Of a stretch of DNA of 34,629 nt, positions 4,851-33,194 are shown in pieces. Position numbers and translations under genes: made by a program. The DNA is from a virus. A model generated the notes under the pieces. The model saw only the letters and a program-made list of their open reading frames with translations. It ran no database searches and was not told where the DNA came from. The stretch lies in IMG/VR virus record IMGVR_UViG_3300046460_000163, positions 1 through 34,629 of that record; one strand, given 5' to 3'. Positions within the stretch are counted from its first letter, which is position 1, and each line of letters starts with the position of its first letter.

Positions 4851-5612
4851 ATGAGCACACCGAACGCCACGCTCCGGGCCGTCCGTATGGGCATGCTCAT
4901 GAGCCAGGACGACTTCGCCCGCGCCATCCGCGACGCCGGTACCCGTGTCGGCCAGCCCAACGACGCCAACAAGCGGCTCGTGCAGCGCTGGGAGTCCGGA
5001 ACCACCACCGCACCCCGTCCCGTCTACGCCCGCGCCCTGGAGACCGTCACGGGGCTGCCCATCGAATCCCTTGGCTTCACCATCCCAGTGCCGCAGGCCC
5101 GTGTCGCCGACGACGGCCACGGCGGCCACGACATGGAATCCTCCCCCGCCGCCGTCACCTCTGCCAGCCCGACACCGCAGCCCGAACCGCTGGGCGCGCG
5201 GGGCAACTACTCCGGGGTGTGGCTGTCCCGGTACGAGTACTTCTCCAGCGGCCGGGACGCCTCCTACACCGGGCTCCACTACGTGGTGGTCCTGCAGCAC
5301 GGCAACCGGCTGACGGTCCGTTCCCTGCCCGGGTCGTCGGACTCGCCGCTGACCATAGACCTGGAGATAGACGGGCACGTCGCCACCGGCACCTGGACCG
5401 AGCAGACCGCGACCGGCGGCTACTACCGGGGCGCCCGGTACCACGGCGCGATTCAGCTCCTGGTGGAGCCGACAGGGCGCCGCATGTCCGGCAAGTGGGT
5501 TGGCTTCGGCAAGGAGTTCGACGTGAACACCGGCCCGTGGGAACTCGTCTTCCAGGACGCCTCAACGAACCGGGCGACCCTCGACAAGTACAACCACAAG
5601 CCCGACGTCTGA
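4851..5612 (+). CDS. XRE regulator with beta-rich C-terminal domain, 253 aa; candidate immunity repressor
   Basis: Start chosen at ATG 4851 (MSTPNATLRAVRMG). No Shine-Dalgarno is visible, so a leaderless mRNA is possible, as is common in Streptomyces; GTG 4842 in frame is the alternative. Residues ~6-75 form an XRE-type HTH (LMSQDDFARAIRDAG to RLVQRWESGTTTAP). After a Pro/Ser linker, residues ~115-235 form a compact beta-rich domain (NYSGVWLSRYEYFSSGRD, HYVVVLQHGNRLTVRSL, GYYRGARYHGAIQLL, GKWVGFGKEFDVNTG) seen in Streptomyces regulators but of unknown ligand. There is no S24 protease motif, so RecA-driven self-cleavage is unlikely. It lies alone between attP and the late operon terminator. 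A repressor role is inferred. Confidence 0.8.
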   Translation: MSTPNATLRAVRMGMLMSQDDFARAIRDAGTRVGQPNDANKRLVQRWESGTTTAPRPVYARALETVTGLPIESLGFTIPVPQARVADDGHGGHDMESSPAAVTSASPTPQPEPLGARGNYSGVWLSRYEYFSSGRDASYTGLHYVVVLQHGNRLTVRSLPGSSDSPLTIDLEIDGHVATGTWTEQTATGGYYRGARYHGAIQLLVEPTGRRMSGKWVGFGKEFDVNTGPWELVFQDASTNRATLDKYNHKPDV

Positions 5613-5628
5613 CCCCGGATACGACGAA

Positions 5629-5668
5629 GCGCCCCATCACTCCGGCAGATGCCGAGGTGATGGGGCGC
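5629..5668. terminator. Bidirectional terminator between convergent genes
   Basis: Perfect 12-bp stem, GCGCCCCATCAC (5629-5640) with its complement at 5657-5668. The apical part can pair further (CGGCA/TGCCG), and ACGAC/GTCGT flank the base. It separates the rightward regulator ending at 5612 from the leftward late operon ending at 5684. Confidence 0.9.
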
Positions 5669-5683
5669 TGTCGTGTGGGGGGA

Positions 5684-6625
5684 TCAGGCGGGCTCGGGCC
5701 CGATGTTCTCCAACCGCAAGTCGAACGGGTACGTGCTGTGGGCGTACACGAGGCCGCTGCCGGTGCCTTGGTGGACGAGGGCGGCGGTGACCTTGCCGTT
5801 GCCGTCGATCTGGCCGGACGTGACGGTGAACTGCGGCGGGTTGGTCACGTACTCGAACGTCAAGCTCGGGTACATCGACGGCTCGCCCTCGGAGAGGGGA
5901 GTACCGGCCCCGGTCCCCATGTAGACGTCGATGGCGCCGGCGCTGGTGAGCGCTGCCCAGTCCAGGAAGTGACTGCCGACGTGCATGAAGTCGCCGACGA
6001 TCTGGATGCGGTCGCCGACGGCTGCGGTGATGGAGCACTGGAGCAGGGTGCCGCCGGAGGTCTGCACGACGGCCCAGGACGGGGCCGACGGGAGGCCCGA
6101 GAGGTTGTCGTTGATCACGTGCACGCTCGCGGTACGGATCGCGGAGCCGCTGCCGGACGATGGCGTCTGCCAGGTGGCCGTGGTCGCCGACGTCGCGGTG
6201 AGGACCTGCCCGGCCGTGGGCGTGCCGGAGACGAGGACGTCGCCGATGTAGCGGGGGTCTTTCAGCACCGTGTAGGTGCCGGCGACGGGGGCGGGTTGAA
6301 GTACGTCGGCCAGCTTCACGGAGGCCGCGGCCTTGGGCAGGGTGACGTACTGGATCCAGTCAGGCCCGTTGGTCAGCATCGCCGTGACCGTGTACGTCCA
6401 GCCCGTGGGGTTCATGCCGGTGGCGTCGGTGGCGACGAGCTGCACGGAGAACTCTCCGTCGACCAGCGGCACCTCGACGGCGCCGCCGAGCGTGACGTCC
6501 TGGGCGCCGATGACCGCCAGGTCCGGGGCGGTGAAGATGAGCTTGCCCTGCATCCACGCCCCGTTGGGCAGGACCAGCGGCTGCCCGGAGGAGACGGTGA
6601 CTTTCTCCACGCTGGAGAACGGCAT
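5684..6625 (-). CDS. Putative tail fibre / receptor-binding protein, 313 aa
   Basis: Last gene of the late operon. The N-terminal ~110 residues (MPFSSVEKVTVSSGQP to DWIQYVTLPKAAASVKLADV) resemble the strand-rich attachment domain found at the start of actinophage fibre and baseplate proteins. A short linker (GTPTAGQVLTATSATTATWQ) of the type common in fibre shafts follows. The C-terminal ~150 residues are rich in strands and Gly/Ser/Thr and end in YPFDLRLENIGPEPA, plausibly a trimeric tip. Adsorption to the host surface is the expected role. Its ATG overlaps the stop of the collagen-like gene by one base. Fibre identity rests on position and composition rather than a named domain. Confidence 0.65.
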   Translation of the reverse strand: MPFSSVEKVTVSSGQPLVLPNGAWMQGKLIFTAPDLAVIGAQDVTLGGAVEVPLVDGEFSVQLVATDATGMNPTGWTYTVTAMLTNGPDWIQYVTLPKAAASVKLADVLQPAPVAGTYTVLKDPRYIGDVLVSGTPTAGQVLTATSATTATWQTPSSGSGSAIRTASVHVINDNLSGLPSAPSWAVVQTSGGTLLQCSITAAVGDRIQIVGDFMHVGSHFLDWAALTSAGAIDVYMGTGAGTPLSEGEPSMYPSLTFEYVTNPPQFTVTSGQIDGNGKVTAALVHQGTGSGLVYAHSTYPFDLRLENIGPEPA

Positions 6626-7281
6626 CAGAGCCTCCTGTAGGTACCTGTTGCGGCGAGTGCGGCCAGGCCGAGGCCGCCCTCAGTGGGGGTGGGGCTGGGG
6701 GTGTCGTCGCGGTGGCAGGCCAGGTAGTCGGGCTGGTCCGGCATGGGCTGCAGCGAATAGCCGTCCGGACAGCTCGGGCCGGCCGGACCACGGTCGCCGG
6801 CGTCGCCCTTCTCGCCTTGCGGTCCGGGGACGGTGGAATCCGCGCCCGGTTCGCCCTGCGCCCCCTGTGGGCCCGGGACGGTGGAGTCCGCGCCGGGCTG
6901 GCCCGAGGCTCCGGACGGTCCGGGCGACGGCGTGATGGTCGGTGCGGCCTTGCCCGATGGCCCCGCCGGCCCGGGTGGACCAGGGATGGGGACCGGCACT
7001 TCCGCCCGGTCGTTGAGGTTCTTCACGGCCTTCGTCGGGTCCGGCGCCACGGGCGTCTTACCGGCGGCCTTCACCTGCTGCCGGAGCGCCCGCACGTCCC
7101 CGGCCAGGGTGGACACGGCCGTGCCCCGTAGGTCGGCCTCGGCGGCCAGCTTGTCCGCCCGCTTGTCCGCGCCGTCTATACGCGCCCAGATGATGGTCAC
7201 CGCACCCACCAGGACGACCAGCACACAGACGAGCAGGGCGCTACGCCACCGGGGGGCGAGGAGGAGCTGAGCGCGGGTCAC
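6625..7281 (-). CDS. Membrane-anchored collagen-like repeat protein, 218 aa
   Basis: Starts at GTG 7279-7281, overlapping the stop of the upstream gene (GTGA). A single transmembrane helix lies near residues 14-33 (ALLVCVLVVLVGAVTIIWA) after a short basic N-terminus, then a coiled-coil stretch (RADKLAAEADLRGTAVSTLA). A Gly-X-Y region follows at ~100-170 (IPGPPGPAGPSG, PGPQGEKGDAGDRGPAG). The GADSTVPGPQG unit occurs twice, with near-identical DNA. The C-terminal part has two Cys and a Pro/Thr tail. Collagen-like segments form trimeric rods in phage fibres, but the N-terminal membrane helix is unusual for a virion fibre. It sits between lysis genes and the fibre gene; its role is open. Confidence 0.8.
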   Translation of the reverse strand: MTRAQLLLAPRWRSALLVCVLVVLVGAVTIIWARIDGADKRADKLAAEADLRGTAVSTLAGDVRALRQQVKAAGKTPVAPDPTKAVKNLNDRAEVPVPIPGPPGPAGPSGKAAPTITPSPGPSGASGQPGADSTVPGPQGAQGEPGADSTVPGPQGEKGDAGDRGPAGPSCPDGYSLQPMPDQPDYLACHRDDTPSPTPTEGGLGLAALAATGTYRRL

Positions 7282-7505
7282 GGCGGGGTTCCTCCCAGCT
7301 GGGTGATGTGGGCGCGCAGCCGGGTGTTCTCGGCCTGGAGGTCGGTGACCTTGCGGTCGAGCCGATCGCGTTCTTCCTGCAGCTCGTTGGTGAGCGAGGT
7401 GTAGCCGTTGAGGGCGGTCTCGCCCTTCTTCCCGAGGTACGCCACTGCCGCCCCGGCGACTGCGCCCGCACCGACGAGCAGGGTGCCGAGCGACGTGGCG
7501 TCCAA
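7278..7505 (-). CDS. Small membrane protein with coiled coil, lysis-associated, 75 aa
   Basis: The start is TTG 7503-7505, preceded by GGAGGGCCCG, the same ribosome-binding cassette as at the endolysin TTG. Residues ~5-25 (SLGTLLVGAGAVAGAAVAYLG) form one membrane helix. The rest is a charged coiled coil (ELQEERDRLDRKVTDLQAEN). Genes of this shape beside holins in actinophages are usually called second holins or membrane accessory lysis proteins. It follows the two-helix holin and overlaps the collagen-like gene by four bases. A spanin-like role is less likely because no signal peptide cleavage site or partner is seen. Confidence 0.75.
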   Translation of the reverse strand: MDATSLGTLLVGAGAVAGAAVAYLGKKGETALNGYTSLTNELQEERDRLDRKVTDLQAENTRLRAHITQLGGTPP

Positions 7506-24484: not shown

Positions 24485-24685
24485 TCAAGCGGCTACGCGG
24501 AGGCGGCGCTTGGTGTCGAGGGCGATGACGTCCTGGACGGCGTACCAGGGCTGTCGGGGGCTGCCGCCGGCGCGGGCGAGCTGGCCTCGGTGGACGAGCT
24601 GGCGGACGCCGCCGAGCTTGATGCCGAGGCACTGGGCGACCTGGTGGGCGGTCATGTAGCCGGGGGGCAGGTACAGGGGCTCCAT
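24485..24685 (-). CDS. MerR/Xis-like helix-turn-helix protein, 66 aa
   Basis: Small winged-HTH of the excisionase/HTH_17 type: MTAHQVAQCLGIKLGGVRQL, then VHRGQLARAGGSPRQPWYAV with WYAVQDVIALDTKRRL forming the wing and terminal helix. Such proteins serve as Xis or regulators in actinomycete integrative elements, where they usually sit just before a tyrosine integrase. Here the integrase is a serine type and lies 20 kb away, so the protein may be a directionality factor, a transfer-operon regulator, or a relic. The ATG 24683-24685 is next to a hairpin that can mask the ribosome-binding site, and the promoter upstream is framed by palindromes. Confidence 0.8.
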   Translation of the reverse strand: MEPLYLPPGYMTAHQVAQCLGIKLGGVRQLVHRGQLARAGGSPRQPWYAVQDVIALDTKRRLRVAA

Positions 24686-24821: not shown

Positions 24822-26912
24822 CTACCCGTCGACCTCTCCGGCGTCCTCCGGAAGGTCCGCGTATCGGACGCCCTTGGCGCCGCCGCAGCACTCCCGGATG
24901 CTGATCTGCCGGGTCGCTACCTTGTGCGGCTTCAACGCGGCGCTGAGCATCGTCGAGCGGGCCCCGGCGTCGGGCTCGTCCATCCACAACCCGTACAGGT
25001 CGGCCCGGTACTTGGCGAGGGCCTCGACGAGCCGGTGTGAGTGGACTGTGTCGACGCCGTCGGGCCAGATGGCGCGCAGGTGGTCGACGACGGTCTCGAT
25101 GTCGAGCTCGGCGACGTGCTCGCCCACGGACTGCCCGGTCAGCGTGCCGGCGGCGGTGCGCAGGGCGAGCGCCCTTTTGCCGATGTCCTCGGCCTCGGTC
25201 TGTTTGATGAACGCTGCCCGCACGGTGATGCCTTCGCGGCCGCGGGCCAGGATGCCGGTGCCCTGCTCGTCGACGGAGATGTCGGTGGCGCGCAGGCCGC
25301 GGTCGTAGGCGCCGGTGCCGAGCACGTTGTTGTTGGCGCGCCAGTCCATGACGGCCAGGCACAGCCGCGTGCCGACCGAGCTCGACACGGAGGTGGGCAG
25401 GCTCGGGGCGTCGGGGTTCTGGGTGAGCAGGATCAGGATCAGCCCGTAGGCCCGCCCCTTCTTGATCAGGCGCGTGCACAGGGCGGCGGCTTCCTCCTTG
25501 TACTCGGGGTGGGTGAACAGCTCCTGGACCTCGTCGACGACGATGACGCGCGGGCCGAGGTTCTGCTCGGGGTACTTCTCGGACAGGGCGCGGGTGACCT
25601 TGCGGCCCTCGGGGACCTCGGACGCGGGCAGGGACTTGATGAACTTCGCGCGCCGCTGGTACTCGGCGATCCCGGAGCGCAGGCCGGCGAGCGCGGCCTC
25701 CAGGTCCTCGTCCTCGTCGCCGGACACGTAGCGGTGGCAGACGGGCTTGACGGAGTCGAGGTCGCCGGACCCTTTGAGCTCGTAAATCCACAGCTCAGCG
25801 GTCGGGTCGAGGGCCACGCCGAGGACGATGGCCAGGGCGCACGAGGTCTTGCCGGAGCCGGGGATGCCGCCTGCCAGCAGGTTGGAGTACATGAGGGTGA
25901 TCTCGACGAGGTTGCCGCGCGGGTCGAAGCCGAACGGCAGCGGCTGGTACACGTCGGCCTGGCCGTCCTTCATCAGCGGCCACAGCTTGCGGGGCGCCTT
26001 GGCCGGGTCGCTCTGGGCGACCCACAGCACCAGGCGGCCCGGGTGGGCGCTGCGGTCGCCCTCTGGCCACACGGTGGAGATGGGGCGGCGCATGGCGGCG
26101 GCGAGGGCGGCGCGCTTCTCCAGGACAGCGGTGGCTTCAATGCCGGGCGGCAGGTCGACCTCGGCGCGCCAGCCGGGCCCGTCGCGCTGGACCTCGGCGG
26201 CGAACTCGATGCCGCGCCGTCCCTTCTTGCCTTCGATGCCGATCGCGGCCAGGGCCTCGAACACCTCGGTGCTGTCGAGGGGCCGCATGTGGCGGACGGA
26301 CACGTACCGGGTGATGAGCGGCCGGTCGGCGCGGCGGCCGGCCACGCCGAGGGCGGCCAGGCATGCGATGCCGGCGAGGGCGGTCCAGCCGGGGACGATG
26401 AACGCCGCCACGGTGGTGGCGATGGTGGTGGCTGCGGTGATGGTGATGGACATGATGCGGCGGGGCCGGATGCGACGGGAGCGTTCGCGGGACAGGTTGA
26501 GCCACGCGTCGATGTCGGCGGTGGTGGCGGCTTTGGCTTCGACGGGGCGGGCTTCGGCGTCGACGACCCACCGGAACCACTTGACGGTGAGCCGCCAGGC
26601 GCCGCGCGGTGAGCGGCCGGTCAGGCGCACGACGTAGACGGGGATGCGGACGGTGTGGAAGGCGGTGACGTGGGCGAGGTAGCCGGCGGTGTAGCGGGCG
26701 GCGGTGGTGAACTCGGTGGCGTTGCGCAGGAAGGTGGGGATGACGGGCGGGGCTTCTTGCAGGTAGGCGCGGCGTTCGGCGATCCATGTGCCGTCGGGGT
26801 CGGCGGTGTCGGGCAGGTCGACGGGGCGGGGGACTTCGACGGCTTCGACGTACTCGGGTTCGGGTTCGACGGTGTCGGTGTCCTTGACGAGGCGGAGGAC
26901 GTTCTCCGTCAT
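24822..26912 (-). CDS. FtsK/SpoIIIE-type DNA translocase, plasmid/ICE transfer (TraB/TraSA-like), 696 aa
   Basis: An N-terminal ~150-residue cytosolic part is followed by two membrane segments (~155-190: IMSITITAATTIATTVAAFI, LAGIACLAALGVAG). The motor domain has Walker A GGIPGSGKTS (348-357), YELKGSGDLD and Walker B RVIVVDEVQEL (~455-465), plus ILILLTQNPDAPSLPTSV. The C-terminus (ETVVDHLRAIWPDGVDTVHS to MLSAALKPHKVATRQISI) is a winged-helix-like domain, like the sequence-reading gamma domain of TraB proteins that bind clt repeats. In Streptomyces plasmids and AICEs one such protein moves double-stranded DNA between mycelial compartments. The start ATG 26910-26912 has GGAGAG upstream. Its neighbours are Spd-like membrane proteins. 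Role in a phage is open: transfer, segregation or ejection support. Confidence 0.92.
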   Translation of the reverse strand: MTENVLRLVKDTDTVEPEPEYVEAVEVPRPVDLPDTADPDGTWIAERRAYLQEAPPVIPTFLRNATEFTTAARYTAGYLAHVTAFHTVRIPVYVVRLTGRSPRGAWRLTVKWFRWVVDAEARPVEAKAATTADIDAWLNLSRERSRRIRPRRIMSITITAATTIATTVAAFIVPGWTALAGIACLAALGVAGRRADRPLITRYVSVRHMRPLDSTEVFEALAAIGIEGKKGRRGIEFAAEVQRDGPGWRAEVDLPPGIEATAVLEKRAALAAAMRRPISTVWPEGDRSAHPGRLVLWVAQSDPAKAPRKLWPLMKDGQADVYQPLPFGFDPRGNLVEITLMYSNLLAGGIPGSGKTSCALAIVLGVALDPTAELWIYELKGSGDLDSVKPVCHRYVSGDEDEDLEAALAGLRSGIAEYQRRAKFIKSLPASEVPEGRKVTRALSEKYPEQNLGPRVIVVDEVQELFTHPEYKEEAAALCTRLIKKGRAYGLILILLTQNPDAPSLPTSVSSSVGTRLCLAVMDWRANNNVLGTGAYDRGLRATDISVDEQGTGILARGREGITVRAAFIKQTEAEDIGKRALALRTAAGTLTGQSVGEHVAELDIETVVDHLRAIWPDGVDTVHSHRLVEALAKYRADLYGLWMDEPDAGARSTMLSAALKPHKVATRQISIRECCGGAKGVRYADLPEDAGEVDG

Positions 26913-26991: not shown

Positions 26992-27168
26992 CTAGTTGGT
27001 CTTCTTGGCGCGCTTGCGGGCCTGCTCGTCGATGCGGTCGAGCTTGCGGTCGATGTCGCTGAGGTCGACGCCCTCGCCGGCCAATGAGCGCTTGCAGCCG
27101 CGCACGATCAGTCCGGCCCTGCGCCACTTCTCAGCCGTCGTGTACTCGGGCTTGTCGTCGTCGTGCAT
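26992..27168 (-). CDS. Small basic coiled-coil protein, 58 aa
   Basis: Start at ATG 27166-27168 overlapping the stop of the upstream membrane protein by one base. Sequence MHDDDKPEYTTAEKWRRAGL, IVRGCKRSLAGEGVDLSDID and a Lys/Arg-rich end (RKLDRIDEQARKRAKKTN). It resembles small accessory proteins encoded before tra genes in Streptomyces elements. No catalytic motif is visible. A DNA- or translocase-binding helper is plausible but unproven. Confidence 0.75.
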   Translation of the reverse strand: MHDDDKPEYTTAEKWRRAGLIVRGCKRSLAGEGVDLSDIDRKLDRIDEQARKRAKKTN

Positions 27169-27476
27169 CACTTGCCGCCCTTCCGAATGTCCTGCCAGAC
27201 CTGCCGCAGGATGAGAACGCAGATGGTCAGGGACACGGCGGAGATGGCCACCGCGACGGCGGACAGGGCGAACGCCAGCAGGAAGATGGAGCCGCCGATG
27301 CCGATGCCGATCCACTTCGCGGCCTGCCCGGACTGCTGGGGCGCCGGCAGCGGTGCGGGCTGCTGCTGCGCCTGGACGATCTGAGCGGCCTGGACCGCGG
27401 CGAGCATCATGGCGAACTGCTCGCCCTGTCTGGCGGCCTCGACGGCGTCCTGCGAGGCCTTCTCGATGTCGGTCAT
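27168..27476 (-). CDS. Small membrane protein (Spd-like), 102 aa
   Basis: The N-terminal half is Ala/Gln-rich and probably cytosolic (ASQDAVEAARQGEQFAMMLA, AQIVQAQQQPAPLPAPQQSG). The C-terminal half has two adjacent membrane helices (AKWIGIGIGGSIFLLAFALS, AVAISAVSLTICVLILRQVW) and a basic tail. Small membrane proteins next to TraB in Streptomyces plasmids (Spd proteins) help the DNA spread through septal cross-walls. It is coupled to its neighbours by ATGA and TGATG overlaps. Confidence 0.78.
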   Translation of the reverse strand: MTDIEKASQDAVEAARQGEQFAMMLAAVQAAQIVQAQQQPAPLPAPQQSGQAAKWIGIGIGGSIFLLAFALSAVAVAISAVSLTICVLILRQVWQDIRKGGK

Positions 27477-28171
27477 GCCGTGAGTTCCTTGGCGGCGGCG
27501 AGGACGCGGCGGCCGTAGCGGTCGGTGGTTCCGAGGCGTTCGCCGACGGCCTTGCCGGAGAGGGCGGGTTGTTCCGCGAGGAGCTGGGCGATGTCGCGGA
27601 TCTGGTCGGCCGGAACCTTGTGGCGGCTGGCGAGCCAGTCGGCGGCGGTGGGCTCGGCGGGCGGTGCCGGGGGCAGTTCCGGTACGGCGGGGAGCGGGCG
27701 CTTATAGCCCTTGTCGAGGGCGAGGTGCGGAACCGGCTCCGGAACCTTGATCACGGGCCGGGGGTCGGTCCGCTGGACGAGCACCGTCACCGGTTCCGTC
27801 TGGGGTCCTGCCGGGACCTCTGTCGGCTTGGCGCGGGCGAGTGCGTGCGTCCTCCAGATCGCGATCGGAACCAGCAGCGACACGACGGTGACGAGCGCGA
27901 TGTCGACCTGCACCACCTTGGCGTCGAGGAGGTGAGCGGCGACCTGGGCGGCACCCATGAGTGCCAGCGACAGGAAGATGTCGAAGGCGCGGAACCAGCG
28001 CAGGGCTGCCACCACGTAGGCGTCGATGGCGAGCGGCAGCATCGCGGCGACGAGGACGCCGGCGCCCAGCGTCACGGCGAGCTGGTACTCGGCCGAGGCG
28101 GTGAAAGCGATGCCGGCGCCGAGCGACAGCCGGGTCAGCCAGGTGCGCATGGGGTCGGGGGTGTCGGTCAC
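27473..28171 (-). CDS. DUF2637/Spd-like membrane protein with C-terminal winged helix, 232 aa
   Basis: Starts at GTG 28169-28171 (GTGA overlap with the upstream stop). About four membrane helices lie in residues 12-108, including the diagnostic VAAMLPLAIDAYVVAALRWF segment, in which an acidic residue lies inside a membrane helix as in DUF2637 proteins. A Pro-rich cytosolic linker (~115-170) leads to a DNA-binding-like C-terminal domain (ADWLASRHKVPADQIRDIAQ to LGTTDRYGRRVLAAAKEL). DUF2637 proteins are hallmarks of actinomycete plasmids and AICEs and accompany TraB in mycelial spread. Family assignment is fairly firm; the phage function is inferred. Confidence 0.85.
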   Translation of the reverse strand: MTDTPDPMRTWLTRLSLGAGIAFTASAEYQLAVTLGAGVLVAAMLPLAIDAYVVAALRWFRAFDIFLSLALMGAAQVAAHLLDAKVVQVDIALVTVVSLLVPIAIWRTHALARAKPTEVPAGPQTEPVTVLVQRTDPRPVIKVPEPVPHLALDKGYKRPLPAVPELPPAPPAEPTAADWLASRHKVPADQIRDIAQLLAEQPALSGKAVGERLGTTDRYGRRVLAAAKELTA

Positions 28172-28353
28172 GTGAGGCTCCGGAAGGTGCGGGCGATGCG
28201 CGGCCAGGCGAGCAGGCCGGCGATGAACGCCCACACGGTGGGCTGACTTGCGGCGGCGACCAGGAGGGCGCCGAGGAAGCCGACGACGGCCGTGCCGAGG
28301 GCGGGGTAGGCGACGAGCAGGCCGAGCAGGATGCCGAGGGTGAGCCACTTCAC
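28168..28353 (-). CDS. Small hydrophobic membrane protein, 61 aa
   Basis: GTG start at 28351-28353, coupled on both sides. Two membrane helices fill nearly the whole protein (WLTLGILLGLLVAYPALGTA, VVGFLGALLVAAASQPTVWA, FIAGLLAWPRIARTFRSL). No motif. Its place directly before the DUF2637 gene suggests a small Spd-type component. It is not near the lysis cassette, so a holin role is unlikely. Confidence 0.75.
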   Translation of the reverse strand: MKWLTLGILLGLLVAYPALGTAVVGFLGALLVAAASQPTVWAFIAGLLAWPRIARTFRSLT

Positions 28354-30525: not shown

Positions 30526-30759
30526 TCAGTCCTTCGTGGTGGGCTCAGTGGTGCTGAGGGCAGGGGTTTCGGTCTGGGCGAGACCCTTTCCGTCCGTCGT
30601 GCGGATGGAATCCGCCTCCAGCCGTGCGAGCTTCACGCGGTGCCGTGCGATAAGCCCGGCCTGCCTGGCGGCCTGCTGGGTGGCGCGGCGCCGCTTGTTG
30701 GCCTCGATGCGCCGGCGGGCGGCGGCTATCTGCTCGGCCACGACGTCGTCGACGTTCAC
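30526..30759 (-). CDS. Small basic helical protein, 77 aa
   Basis: GTG start at 30757-30759 (GTGA overlap). Sequence VDDVVAEQIAAARRRIEANK, RRRATQQAARQAGLIARHRV and KLARLEADSIRTTDGKGL: a long positively charged helix suited to binding nucleic acid, then a Thr-rich tail. No known domain. It lies just downstream of the candidate origin. Confidence 0.7.
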   Translation of the reverse strand: MNVDDVVAEQIAAARRRIEANKRRRATQQAARQAGLIARHRVKLARLEADSIRTTDGKGLAQTETPALSTTEPTTKD

Positions 30760-30941
30760 GAGCGGAAGGTGTCGGGGACGGTGCGGCCGTTCTGGATGCG
30801 GCGCCAGGTGGGGCACGGGTCGTCGTGGCAGATGGCCATGGACCAGATGCCGGGCTGGATCTCGGTGAGGCGCTGCTCGGCGTTGCACGTGTCGCAGCCG
30901 CCGGGGATGGTGGCGCCGTTCAGCTCGGGTGGGATGATCAC
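30756..30941 (-). CDS. Small CxxC zinc-finger-like protein, 61 aa
   Basis: GTG start at 30939-30941 with an excellent GGAGGAAGC upstream. CDTC (C16, C19) and MAICHDDPCPTW (C38, C43) make a probable four-Cys zinc site. First gene after the iteron region; the longer upstream frame (Ser/Pro-rich, read from the repeats) is rejected because the Shine-Dalgarno is so clear. Function unknown; possibly involved in replication control. Confidence 0.78.
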   Translation of the reverse strand: MIIPPELNGATIPGGCDTCNAEQRLTEIQPGIWSMAICHDDPCPTWRRIQNGRTVPDTFRS

Positions 30942-31167
30942 GCTTCCTCCTTGCGTATACACAAATTTGATTGATGAGATTGATGAGAATGGATCTGACC
31001 TGCAGTTTTGTGGTGACGAGAATGGTGACGAGAATGAGGTTCGGGGTGACGAGAATGGTGAGAATGGAGGTCCCATTCACGTCACCAATCCCGTCAATCT
31101 CGTCAGCCCCACCCTGTGGAGAAGTCGCAGGTCAGGCCCAATCTCGTCATGTTCGTCATGTACGTCA
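30942..31167. other. Candidate replication origin: converging arrays of an 11-bp iteron
   Basis: A 223-bp gap, unusually AT-rich for this genome (ACAAATTTGATTGATGAG, GTATAC). Direct copies of TGAYGAGAWTG start at 30972, 30981, 31014, 31026 and 31047 (the last three identical), with a fragment at 31059. Inverted copies lie at 31074-31084, 31086-31096, 31095-31105, 31139-31149, 31148-31158 and 31157-31167, the final one overlapping the helicase stop codon. The arrays face each other around 31065, where GGTGACGAGAATG and CATTCACGTCACC form a near-perfect dyad. Iterons next to a helicase-primase gene pair are typical of plasmid and phage origins. The gap may also hold the promoter for the downstream small genes. 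Confidence 0.72.
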
Positions 31168-32331
31168 GCCTGTACGGGGGAGGTCTGTGCCGACCTCGCG
31201 TGCCCATGCGTCTGGCAGGTACCAGTGCGACGTCCGGTCTCGGCCGAATCCCTGCTGCTTGGATCGGATGCCGAGCTTTTTCTTGGCGCGGTCGACGGCT
31301 GACTCGCTGAAGCTCTCCTTCTTGGCTGCCTTCTTGATCTCGCGCGCCTCGTCCGAGCCGCCGAGGTCCGTGAGCCAACCCTGCAGCCACTCGGATACCT
31401 CGCTGCTCGAACCGACCGAGTCGCCGTTGGTCTCGGCCCGCATGACGTCCCGCACGGACGTGGTGGACTCGGGGCCGAGAACGAACCGAGAGACGTAGGT
31501 GGGCCCTTCGTCGGTCTCGACGGTGACTGGCTGGATGTCGTAGGTGTGAGAGGGCAGCCCGAGGCGGCCGAGGTTGTTCTTCTCCAGGCTCATGACGAAC
31601 TCGTCCACGCCGTCTTCTCCTTCTTGCTTGGCGAACGCGATCAGACAGCGGATGAGCTGGCCGAAGGCGCCGGATCCGGCGATGCGGCTGAGCGGGTCCG
31701 AGCCGCCCGCCTTGGTGAAGTGGGCCAGGCCGAGGATCGTGAAGCAGTGGCGGTCCGCGGCGGCCACCAACGGCTCCAGCGCGGAGCGGACTTCGGCCGC
31801 GCGGTAGTCGTTGATGCTGGCGTCGATCATCGAGAGCAGCGGGTCAGCGACCAGGAGGCCGACGCTGTACGCCTCGGCGGCCTTGCCCATGAGGGAGATG
31901 TCCTTAGGCAGGGTGAGCCGGGCGTGCATCTCCTCGTCGTCCCGGACGTCGACGCGGAACACCAGGTCCATGTCGGCGCCGGCGGCGACCAGGCGCGGGG
32001 CGATGGTGTACGCCCACGAGTCCTCCGTCGCGGCGTAGATGACGCCGCGCGGCTTGCCGCGCAGCTCGCCCGGCAGTGTGCCCGTGGTGATCCGTGCGGT
32101 GAGCCACACCGCGTACTGGGACTTGCCGAGGCCGGGGCCTCCGGCTGCGATGGCAAGGGAGTTGAGGGGGATCCGCCCGTGCGAGGTGGGCGGGGCGCCC
32201 TCTGGCGTGGTGTCCCAGAGCCAGCGCACCGGACGGATCCGGATTGTGGAGGCCGGGGTGAGGACGAGTTGTCTGGTGACGGTCTCGTCCTCGGCATCCA
32301 CGTCGGGCTTCCACTTCGGCTCGTCGGTCAC
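31165..32331 (-). CDS. RepA-like hexameric replicative helicase (AAA/RecA fold), 388 aa
   Basis: RecA-fold ATPase of the RSF1010 RepA/AAA_25 group. Walker A AAGGPGLGKSQYA (~62-74), a conserved TEDSW segment, Walker B VGLLVADPLLS (~157-167) and a sensor-like ILGLAHFTKAGGSDP. The C-terminal ~80 residues (SEWLQGWLTDLGGSDEAREI to AVDRAKKKLGIRSKQQGFGR) form a winged-helix-type domain as in many phage DnaB-like/RepA proteins, with HWYLP at the end. It should unwind DNA at the origin and is paired with the primase by an ATGA overlap. The iterons lie immediately downstream. Confidence 0.9.
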   Translation of the reverse strand: MTDEPKWKPDVDAEDETVTRQLVLTPASTIRIRPVRWLWDTTPEGAPPTSHGRIPLNSLAIAAGGPGLGKSQYAVWLTARITTGTLPGELRGKPRGVIYAATEDSWAYTIAPRLVAAGADMDLVFRVDVRDDEEMHARLTLPKDISLMGKAAEAYSVGLLVADPLLSMIDASINDYRAAEVRSALEPLVAAADRHCFTILGLAHFTKAGGSDPLSRIAGSGAFGQLIRCLIAFAKQEGEDGVDEFVMSLEKNNLGRLGLPSHTYDIQPVTVETDEGPTYVSRFVLGPESTTSVRDVMRAETNGDSVGSSSEVSEWLQGWLTDLGGSDEAREIKKAAKKESFSESAVDRAKKKLGIRSKQQGFGRDRTSHWYLPDAWAREVGTDLPRTG

Positions 32332-33194
32332 TCGGCCACCGCCGGGTCGCCCGGGTACGGGATGGGCGCCCAGACCTGAACGAACTCGGTGTCGTTGTGG
32401 CCGGCCTCGAAGTGATCGGCGGCGTCCTTACCGCTCTTCGCCTGCACCACGTACACGGACTGAGCGAGGCCGCGCAGCGTCTCGACGACGGCCTCAGCGT
32501 GCTCGCGGCCCTTCTTGTCGCGGTCGGCGACGATCGTGACGTCGGCGCCCTTGAAGAACTGGGCATGCTCAGCAGTCCACTTGCCCGATCCAGCCGCGTT
32601 GCAGGTCGCTTCGAGGCCGTGCTCGACGAGGGCGTGAACATCTTTCTCGCCCTCGCAGATCCAGATCACCTTGCCCTCCGCGATGGCCCGAATGATCTGC
32701 GGGAGGCGGTACGGCACGGCACGGACGAGGCGGTTGCCCTGCTCGTCGTTGAGCTTCCAGCGACGCCCGGACTTGGCGTCTGGGTCGGGCCGCCACTGCC
32801 AGAAGTCCTTCTGATCGCAGCGCACGACACCGTGTACGAGGTGGTGCTGCTCATCGGTGTACAGGTACTGGGCGACCCGCTGATGGCCTTCCTTGCCGCA
32901 CGGCATCCAGGTGTCATCAGCGGGGCGCTCGGGCCGCACGCGCTCGGGCAGCGGCTCGTCGAAGCAGTCGGCTTCGGTCCAGCCGATCGCGGCGAGGAAG
33001 TCGGTGTTGCCCTGGCACTTGTGGCAATAGATGACCACGCCGCCGTTGTTGCCCCGCTTGATCGCGACGGTGTCGACCGCGTCTCCTTCGTGGCAGATGC
33101 CGCGGGTGCGGAGGGCGCCGCCGATGTAGCGGGTGGGTTCGCCCCGGTCGCGGAGGAGGTCGGCGAGCCGGTTGAAGGCGATGCCGTCGGTCAC
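32328..33194 (-). CDS. DNA primase with zinc ribbon and Toprim domain, 288 aa
   Basis: The N-terminal zinc ribbon has Cys34-His35 (RGICHEGDA) and Cys57...Cys60 (VVIYCHKCQGN). A linker region is followed by a Toprim core: VIWICEGEKDVHALVEHGLE supplies the catalytic Glu (E181/E183) and DVTIVADRDKKGREHAEAVV the DxD (D224, D226). It synthesises RNA primers for phage DNA replication and works with the adjacent helicase. Compact relative to DnaG, as usual in phages and plasmids. It overlaps its neighbours by four bases on both sides. Confidence 0.93.
   Translation of the reverse strand: MTDGIAFNRLADLLRDRGEPTRYIGGALRTRGICHEGDAVDTVAIKRGNNGGVVIYCHKCQGNTDFLAAIGWTEADCFDEPLPERVRPERPADDTWMPCGKEGHQRVAQYLYTDEQHHLVHGVVRCDQKDFWQWRPDPDAKSGRRWKLNDEQGNRLVRAVPYRLPQIIRAIAEGKVIWICEGEKDVHALVEHGLEATCNAAGSGKWTAEHAQFFKGADVTIVADRDKKGREHAEAVVETLRGLAQSVYVVQAKSGKDAADHFEAGHNDTEFVQVWAPIPYPGDPAVAE

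Follow-up and report, generated by a model that had tools for sequence, protein, structure and literature searches.

The window (the whole stretch of DNA analyzed here, 34,629 nucleotides) is a viral record of 34.6 kb with a GC content of approximately 70% (69.6%) and a host type of Streptomyces-like bacteria. Its genes include those for a serine integrase, a portal protein, and a terminase, together with a replication block on the minus strand, in which a primase gene and a helicase gene are followed by two facing sets of short repeat units and a mirrored pair of boxes. The features of this block are as follows.

32328-33194, minus strand: Toprim-type primase (288 amino acids; PF13155, phrog_239), upstream of the helicase
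31165-32331, minus strand: RepA-like replicative helicase (388 amino acids; AAA_25, RecA fold), with its TGA stop inside the outermost unit
31219-31410, minus strand: predicted C-terminal winged helix-turn-helix of the helicase (residues 308 to 371; AlphaFold2), the proposed reader of the units
30942-31167, no strand: whole converging array, the proposed replication origin and top repeat block of the window
30972-31066, plus strand: half 1, TGACGAGAATG-like units starting at 30972, 30981, 31014, 31026, 31047, and 31056 (spacings of 9, 33, 12, 21, and 9 bp)
31074-31167, minus strand: half 2, units starting at 31074, 31086, 31095, 31139, and 31148 plus a weak one at 31157 (spacings of 12, 9, 44, 9, and 9 bp)
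30996-31003, plus strand: conserved box TGACCTGC, retained across the 21 compared loci, with TGACCTGCNGTTTT as its extended form on the plus side
31127-31134, minus strand: mirrored partner of the TGACCTGC box, giving a span of 139 bp between the two boxes
30956-30985, no strand: AT-rich array edge, a candidate unwinding element, conserved among the closest relatives only
30756-30941, minus strand: small open reading frame adjoining the array downstream, with a GTG start after AGGAGG; function unknown

A family search with the small open reading frame (30756-30941) gave no match, a nucleotide search of a phage collection using the window as a query also returned none, and nothing was found in an Rfam search. 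Elsewhere on the minus strand, the window encodes an FtsK/SpoIIIE-like DNA translocase (24822-26912; 696 amino acids; at the Pfam cutoff, phrog_1358), beside which lie small membrane-protein-like genes (27168-28353), in a genome that also carries portal and terminase genes. This gene and its neighbors resemble a Streptomyces plasmid-transfer module within a phage. A small HTH_17 protein (24485-24685, minus strand; 66 amino acids; under the Pfam cutoff) is an excisionase-like candidate.

Eleven matches to TGACGAGAATG with no more than two mismatches were found at 30972-31158, six on the plus strand and five on the minus strand. A twelfth unit, TGACGTACATG at 31157-31167, is weaker (three mismatches) and was read directly from the sequence, so that the array comprises 12 units (6 + 6, one weak) spanning 30972-31167, with the halves facing each other. 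The TGA stop codon of the helicase is the start of this outermost unit, so that the end of the gene coincides exactly with the edge of the array. The underlying unit spacings are 9 and 12 bp, and the unit type of the window is also given as GACGAGATT. The 11 sites in 30942-31167 compare with a mean of 0.13 and a maximum of 3 in 1,000 dinucleotide shuffles of the same stretch, the direct-plus-inverted repeat score of 75 compares with a shuffle maximum of 11, and the array ranks first among approximately 80 window blocks when these are ordered by direct-plus-inverted 9-mer score. The AT content reaches 64% at 30950-30999, versus approximately 30% preceding it; this AT-rich part lies at one outer edge, and the center of the array is not AT rich.

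An earlier note, made without database searches, had described this locus as a candidate origin with a converging repeat array, and this observation was confirmed, as were its AT richness in a GC-rich genome (50.4% GC for 30942-31167 versus 69.6% for the window) and its position behind helicase-primase genes, ending in the helicase stop codon. The identical copies it reported also held (31014, 31026, and 31047 on the left; 31095 and 31139 on the right). Its split into five left and six right copies failed, as six and six were found, one of them weak; the 9- and 12-bp spacings are added here as a correction, and the two mirrored TGACCTGC boxes were absent from it.

AAA_25 was the only Pfam family found in the window helicase, which has a profile match to RSF1010 RepA (1g8y/1nlf/1olo; E = 6e-4) and a fold match as well. 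A winged helix is predicted within the last 80 residues; in the AlphaFold2 model the C terminus consists of helices at 308-322, 329-338, and 343-352 and strands at 356-360 and 367-371, with block pLDDT values of 81 to 90 from residue 311 onward. When the C-terminal domain alone was modeled from a single sequence, the pLDDT was 65 and a fold search gave no meaningful match.

Relatives of the helicase sharing 94 to 65% identity are encoded in Streptomyces genomes, in viral contigs, and on two circular plasmids of Streptomyces. Of the 21 loci, the window among them, that could be aligned by their boxes, 20 have the array at the helicase stop or a short distance beyond it with the same order of parts, and in 12 of the 21 the first box is 31 bp past the stop. 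The exception is the plasmid CP108844, in which the array is inverted and approximately 5 kb from the helicase gene. Absence of the repeats from close relatives that keep the flanking genes had been set beforehand as a refuting test for the origin; the array was found to be kept, while the genes further downstream vary among relatives. Moreover, what NZ_CP058979 and CP108844 have in common with the window genes is limited to the array, the helicase (74%), and a distant primase (31 to 32%). As the array is kept with differing downstream genes, and on plasmids sharing little else, the candidate origin is well supported by comparative evidence, not by experiment. The array is present on the two circular Streptomyces plasmids and, in a divergent form, on pCG2; these comparisons show its conservation and its portability to plasmids, and its support of autonomous replication in cis is inferred from this presence on circular plasmids. 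A suggested GC-skew check placed the array close to the maximum of the cumulative curve, not the minimum, on three circular plasmids; this result is not decisive, and the composition of the array itself contributes to it.

The box-to-box span across the 21 loci was 138 to 140 bp in 14, 126 to 128 bp in five, and 117 and 106 bp in one each, the shorter spans belonging to divergent relatives. Spans of 139, 128, 117, and 106 bp step by 11 bp, near a helical turn; as only four span classes exist, this stepping is suggestive, not proven. In box-bearing relatives the units converge and wrong-way copies are almost absent, with most halves holding four to eight units (no more than three mismatches), a number that could fit two hexamers (the exact count per half varies with the treatment of weak units). 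A second box pair in one relative (L031, at 18408) lacks units and was rejected as a chance occurrence, and the box pair proved too unspecific as a pattern for scanning viral contigs.

Blocks of 78 dereplicated relatives were ranked by repeat content, using a 650-bp zone around the helicase stop. The helicase 3' end was the most repeat-rich block of the locus in 41 of the 78, versus 4.7 expected; about half of the relatives have no top-ranking block there. No array was found at the helicase in, for example, L200, L203, L232, L237, L238, and Mycobacterium phage Rando14, nor at the helicase end of the Rando14/Kratio-type mycobacteriophages examined (helicase approximately 37% identical), and related helicases therefore also work otherwise or with a remote origin. 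Among arrays with unrelated unit sequences, the most frequent spacing is 9 bp, followed by 12 and 11 bp. Units have been replaced by TGAGACGAA in L027, TGGCACGAA/TGACAGACA in L028, and GAAGGTGAG in L029, and those of pCG2 (L160, Corynebacterium glutamicum) are GTATGTAAGTG-like. The facing layout persists despite these replacements, as do the 9-bp and 11- to 12-bp spacings, less clearly in pCG2. Plasmids, phages, and integrated elements from across many Actinobacteria share this layout, and their unit letters shift along with the predicted reader domain. In pCG2 itself, long facing GTATGTAAGTG-type repeats lie behind the Prim-Pol/helicase gene at 2338-2650, and these are inferred to be the likely origin of that plasmid.

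In more distant relatives the array falls within the coding sequence of the helicase, past the winged helix, and appears in the protein as tripeptide repeats. At 17 of 20 such in-frame loci the observed score was above all 300 synonymous-codon shuffles, and selection therefore acts on the DNA, not on the protein alone. The isolated Microbacterium phages Nike and Zagie carry GGTGTCACACCTGTCACACCTGTCACACTTCGACCGAGTGTGACAGGTGTGACACCTGTGACACC within gene 70. A near-perfect converging 9-bp array lies in the primase/helicase gene of Nike (L159, 5072-5150) and Zagie (L241), where it is translated as GVTPVTPVTLRPSVTGVTPVTP. In L032, L033, L035, L182, L183, and L196, a Cys-containing helicase tail (CTVCRTPLDPVHA...TTHPTC) with a zinc-ribbon-like look follows the in-frame array.

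The helicase was the only constant partner found among the array-bearing elements compared. The priming gene varies, being Toprim in the window and NZ_CP058979, Prim-Pol in L191 and pCG2, and a DUF2742-like small protein in L029 and L032 (both matches under the Pfam cutoff; no DUF2742 was found in control genomes), which shows that the array is independent of the type of priming gene. L005, L027 to L030, and L032 encode a small protein (approximately 160 to 250 amino acids) upstream of the helicase in the primase position, partly DUF2742-like and with a common ATPGWPPI..PG motif; it is possibly an unknown priming or loading factor. A role of the boxes as primase sites, akin to RSF1010 ssi, was considered and is weakened, as the boxes persist when Toprim gives way to Prim-Pol or the DUF2742-like protein. 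The boxes hold constant through changes of both unit and priming protein, so that their likely reader is the helicase core or a host factor and not the primase; this role is inferred.

Covariation between the units and the winged helix is shown: unit similarity tracks winged-helix similarity beyond that of the core (partial r = 0.34; permutation P = 0.0005), and the partial r of the core given the winged helix is 0.10. In the clearest contrast, L029, L030, and L181 have another wing (SVKPKG) and other, GAAGGTGAGG-like units, with cores approximately 80% identical to that of the window helicase. A counter-case is provided by L005 and L006, which keep the unit of the window with a recognition segment only 44% identical; the covariation is therefore not one-to-one. 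Shared ancestry is not fully removed by the permutation test. Binding of the units by the winged helix is inferred from indirect support only, namely this covariation and the predicted fold, and there are no binding data.

The best explanation is that the array is a theta-type origin of the phage, read by the helicase encoded immediately upstream; we consider this likely, with a probability of roughly 0.77, and the function is inferred without experiment. Under the proposed mechanism, the RepA-like helicase would use its C-terminal winged helix to bind the short units, which are phased at 9 bp with 12-bp steps, and approximately six units per half would gather two opposed assemblies of the helicase, plausibly a pair of hexamers. 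A second contact, for the helicase core or a host factor, would be provided by the mirrored TGACCTGC boxes, whose separation is helically constant. The AT-rich DNA would then open and one helicase would enter each strand, after which the exchangeable priming protein, Toprim in the window, would prime both strands for the host polymerase. The stoichiometry, the unwinding, the bidirectionality, and the priming of both strands are all inferred.

Among the alternatives, the one that survives best, itself unlikely, is that the array is an origin at which the helicase is loaded by another protein bound to the units, either a separate small initiator or a host factor such as DnaA. A separate initiator is used by most iteron origins. 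Several relatives (L005, L009) have genes for HTH_17 proteins in the vicinity of the helicase gene, and next to one of the window boxes there is a DnaA-box-like TTCTCCACA. However, no nonhelicase protein was found to be common to all array-bearing elements compared, unit changes follow the helicase winged helix, and L009 and L027 to L030 have lost the DnaA-like word.

A second alternative, which the earlier note had raised as an autoregulatory operator, is that a repressor, possibly the helicase, binds the array to control the genes on both sides. The array does lie between two gene groups of the same reading direction, and in classical iteron plasmids iteron binding often autoregulates as well. 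However, the array is behind the helicase gene and not in front of it, no sigma-70-like promoter was found in it by a promoter and terminator scan (the one terminator-like site lies outside the array), and the downstream genes vary. Because the array is at the helicase 3' end, approximately 5 kb away in CP108844, and within the helicase frame in many, more distant relatives, an operator is not supported as its main role and is considered very unlikely.

A role of the array in conjugal transfer (clt), partition (parS), or packaging is similarly very unlikely. In favor of such roles, the window encodes the FtsK/SpoIIIE-like protein, Streptomyces clt sites contain short direct and inverted repeats (PMC3583192), and both Streptomyces plasmids encode ParA. 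Against them, the array-bearing plasmids L009, L010, and pCG2 match neither the FtsK-like protein nor the terminase of the window and are typed as nonmobilizable, and the array shows a link with the helicase gene and its winged helix. Lastly, a functionless chance or low-complexity cluster, conceivable given that short direct repeats are generally common, is all but excluded by the shuffle tests, the constant spacing with changing letters, and the rank test over 78 loci.

A helicase-read origin behind its own gene has precedents in SaPI Rep and SCCmec Cch2, helicases that bind such an origin via their C-terminal domain (PMC7581432). In the SaPI/PICI pri-rep-ori module (Ubeda 2007, per PMC7581432 and PMC6092414), this domain binds short iterons right behind the helicase gene, there are two iteron sets, the primase is separate or fused, and the helicase is thought to bind as two hexamers. 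The window array shares this placement of the iterons, immediately 3' of the helicase gene. However, the SaPI/PICI helicase is of the DUF927 or D5/Primase_C type, whereas that of the window is an AAA_25, RecA-fold protein related to RSF1010 RepA, and PICI iterons flank a central AT-rich stretch, whereas the two sets of the window have their AT-rich edge outside. By these tested features (helicase type, center not AT rich) the window module is not a PICI family member. No counterpart of the TGACCTGC boxes or the in-frame arrays was found in the open-access SaPI/PICI literature searched (subscription-journal work on Streptomyces phage-plasmids was outside this coverage). The putative SCCmec Cch2/CCPol-MP origin (PMC7581432) is alike in that the C-terminal domain binds direct repeats downstream of the operon and differs in having only three 5-nucleotide iterons, another helicase family, and no mirrored double array.

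The oriV of RSF1010 (IncQ), with RepA/RepB'/RepC (PMC4234260), resembles the window module in its related helicase core, separate primase, and opposed conserved elements on both strands. The IncQ feature of a RepA-type helicase is met through the profile and fold matches, with the hexamer inferred. In RSF1010, a separate RepC binds the iterons, whereas the window helicase has an added predicted winged helix; likewise, RSF1010 has direct iterons of approximately 20 bp and ssiA/ssiB hairpins, whereas the units of the window are 9-bp phased and converging. No gene for a RepC-like partner was common to the array-bearing elements compared (no RepC profile was used). As the unit architecture differs and no such partner was identified, the evidence does not show the window module to be an IncQ replicon.

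A primase-helicase with a C-terminal winged helix also occurs in pRN1 ORF904 and phage P4 alpha (PMC4234260). The pRN1 origin lies behind the rep gene and still works when moved (PMC4234260); pRN1 differs in its SF3 helicase and in having a stem-loop in place of iterons. The P4 alpha helicase is likewise of SF3. The Streptomyces plasmid pWTY27 (PMC3583192) is theta type and bidirectional, with repAB and a primase/polymerase, and its RepA (522 amino acids), called hypothetical, binds a footprinted inverted repeat of approximately 105 bp with the short repeats GTGGGAAC and TTCCCAC on both strands (PMC3583192). It is possible that pWTY27 is a characterized relative of the window module; no sequence comparison of its RepA with the window helicase is available. 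What is known is a helicase-bound origin behind its own gene; what differs here, by analogy and with the function inferred, is the unrelated helicase of the RSF1010 RepA type.

A bolder reading, on which the evidence leaves us evenly divided, is that actinobacterial phages, plasmids, and integrated elements harbor a class of DnaB/RepA-fold (RecA-type) helicases that would find their own origin by a fused winged helix and self-load as two opposed rings on mirrored units, without a separate initiator or loader. Specificity would evolve by joint change of winged helix and unit, and one branch would have its origin inside the helicase coding sequence. The recurrence of such a layout with an unrelated helicase would represent convergence on one solution. 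The analysis provides a concrete origin to test in the many actinobacterial phages, plasmids, and integrated elements for which a "primase/helicase" is the only annotation, including isolated phages growing on laboratory Microbacterium foliorum. The natural, matched series of winged helices and units forms a data set for following shifts in origin specificity, with compatible vectors, for use in Streptomyces and its relatives, as a possible yield. The two strongest arrays seen lie behind the helicase in two viral contigs: the largest, in L230 (approximately 5500-5750), has 16 units and a score of 347, and that in L236 (approximately 7140-7380, match orientation) has 14 units and a score of 141.
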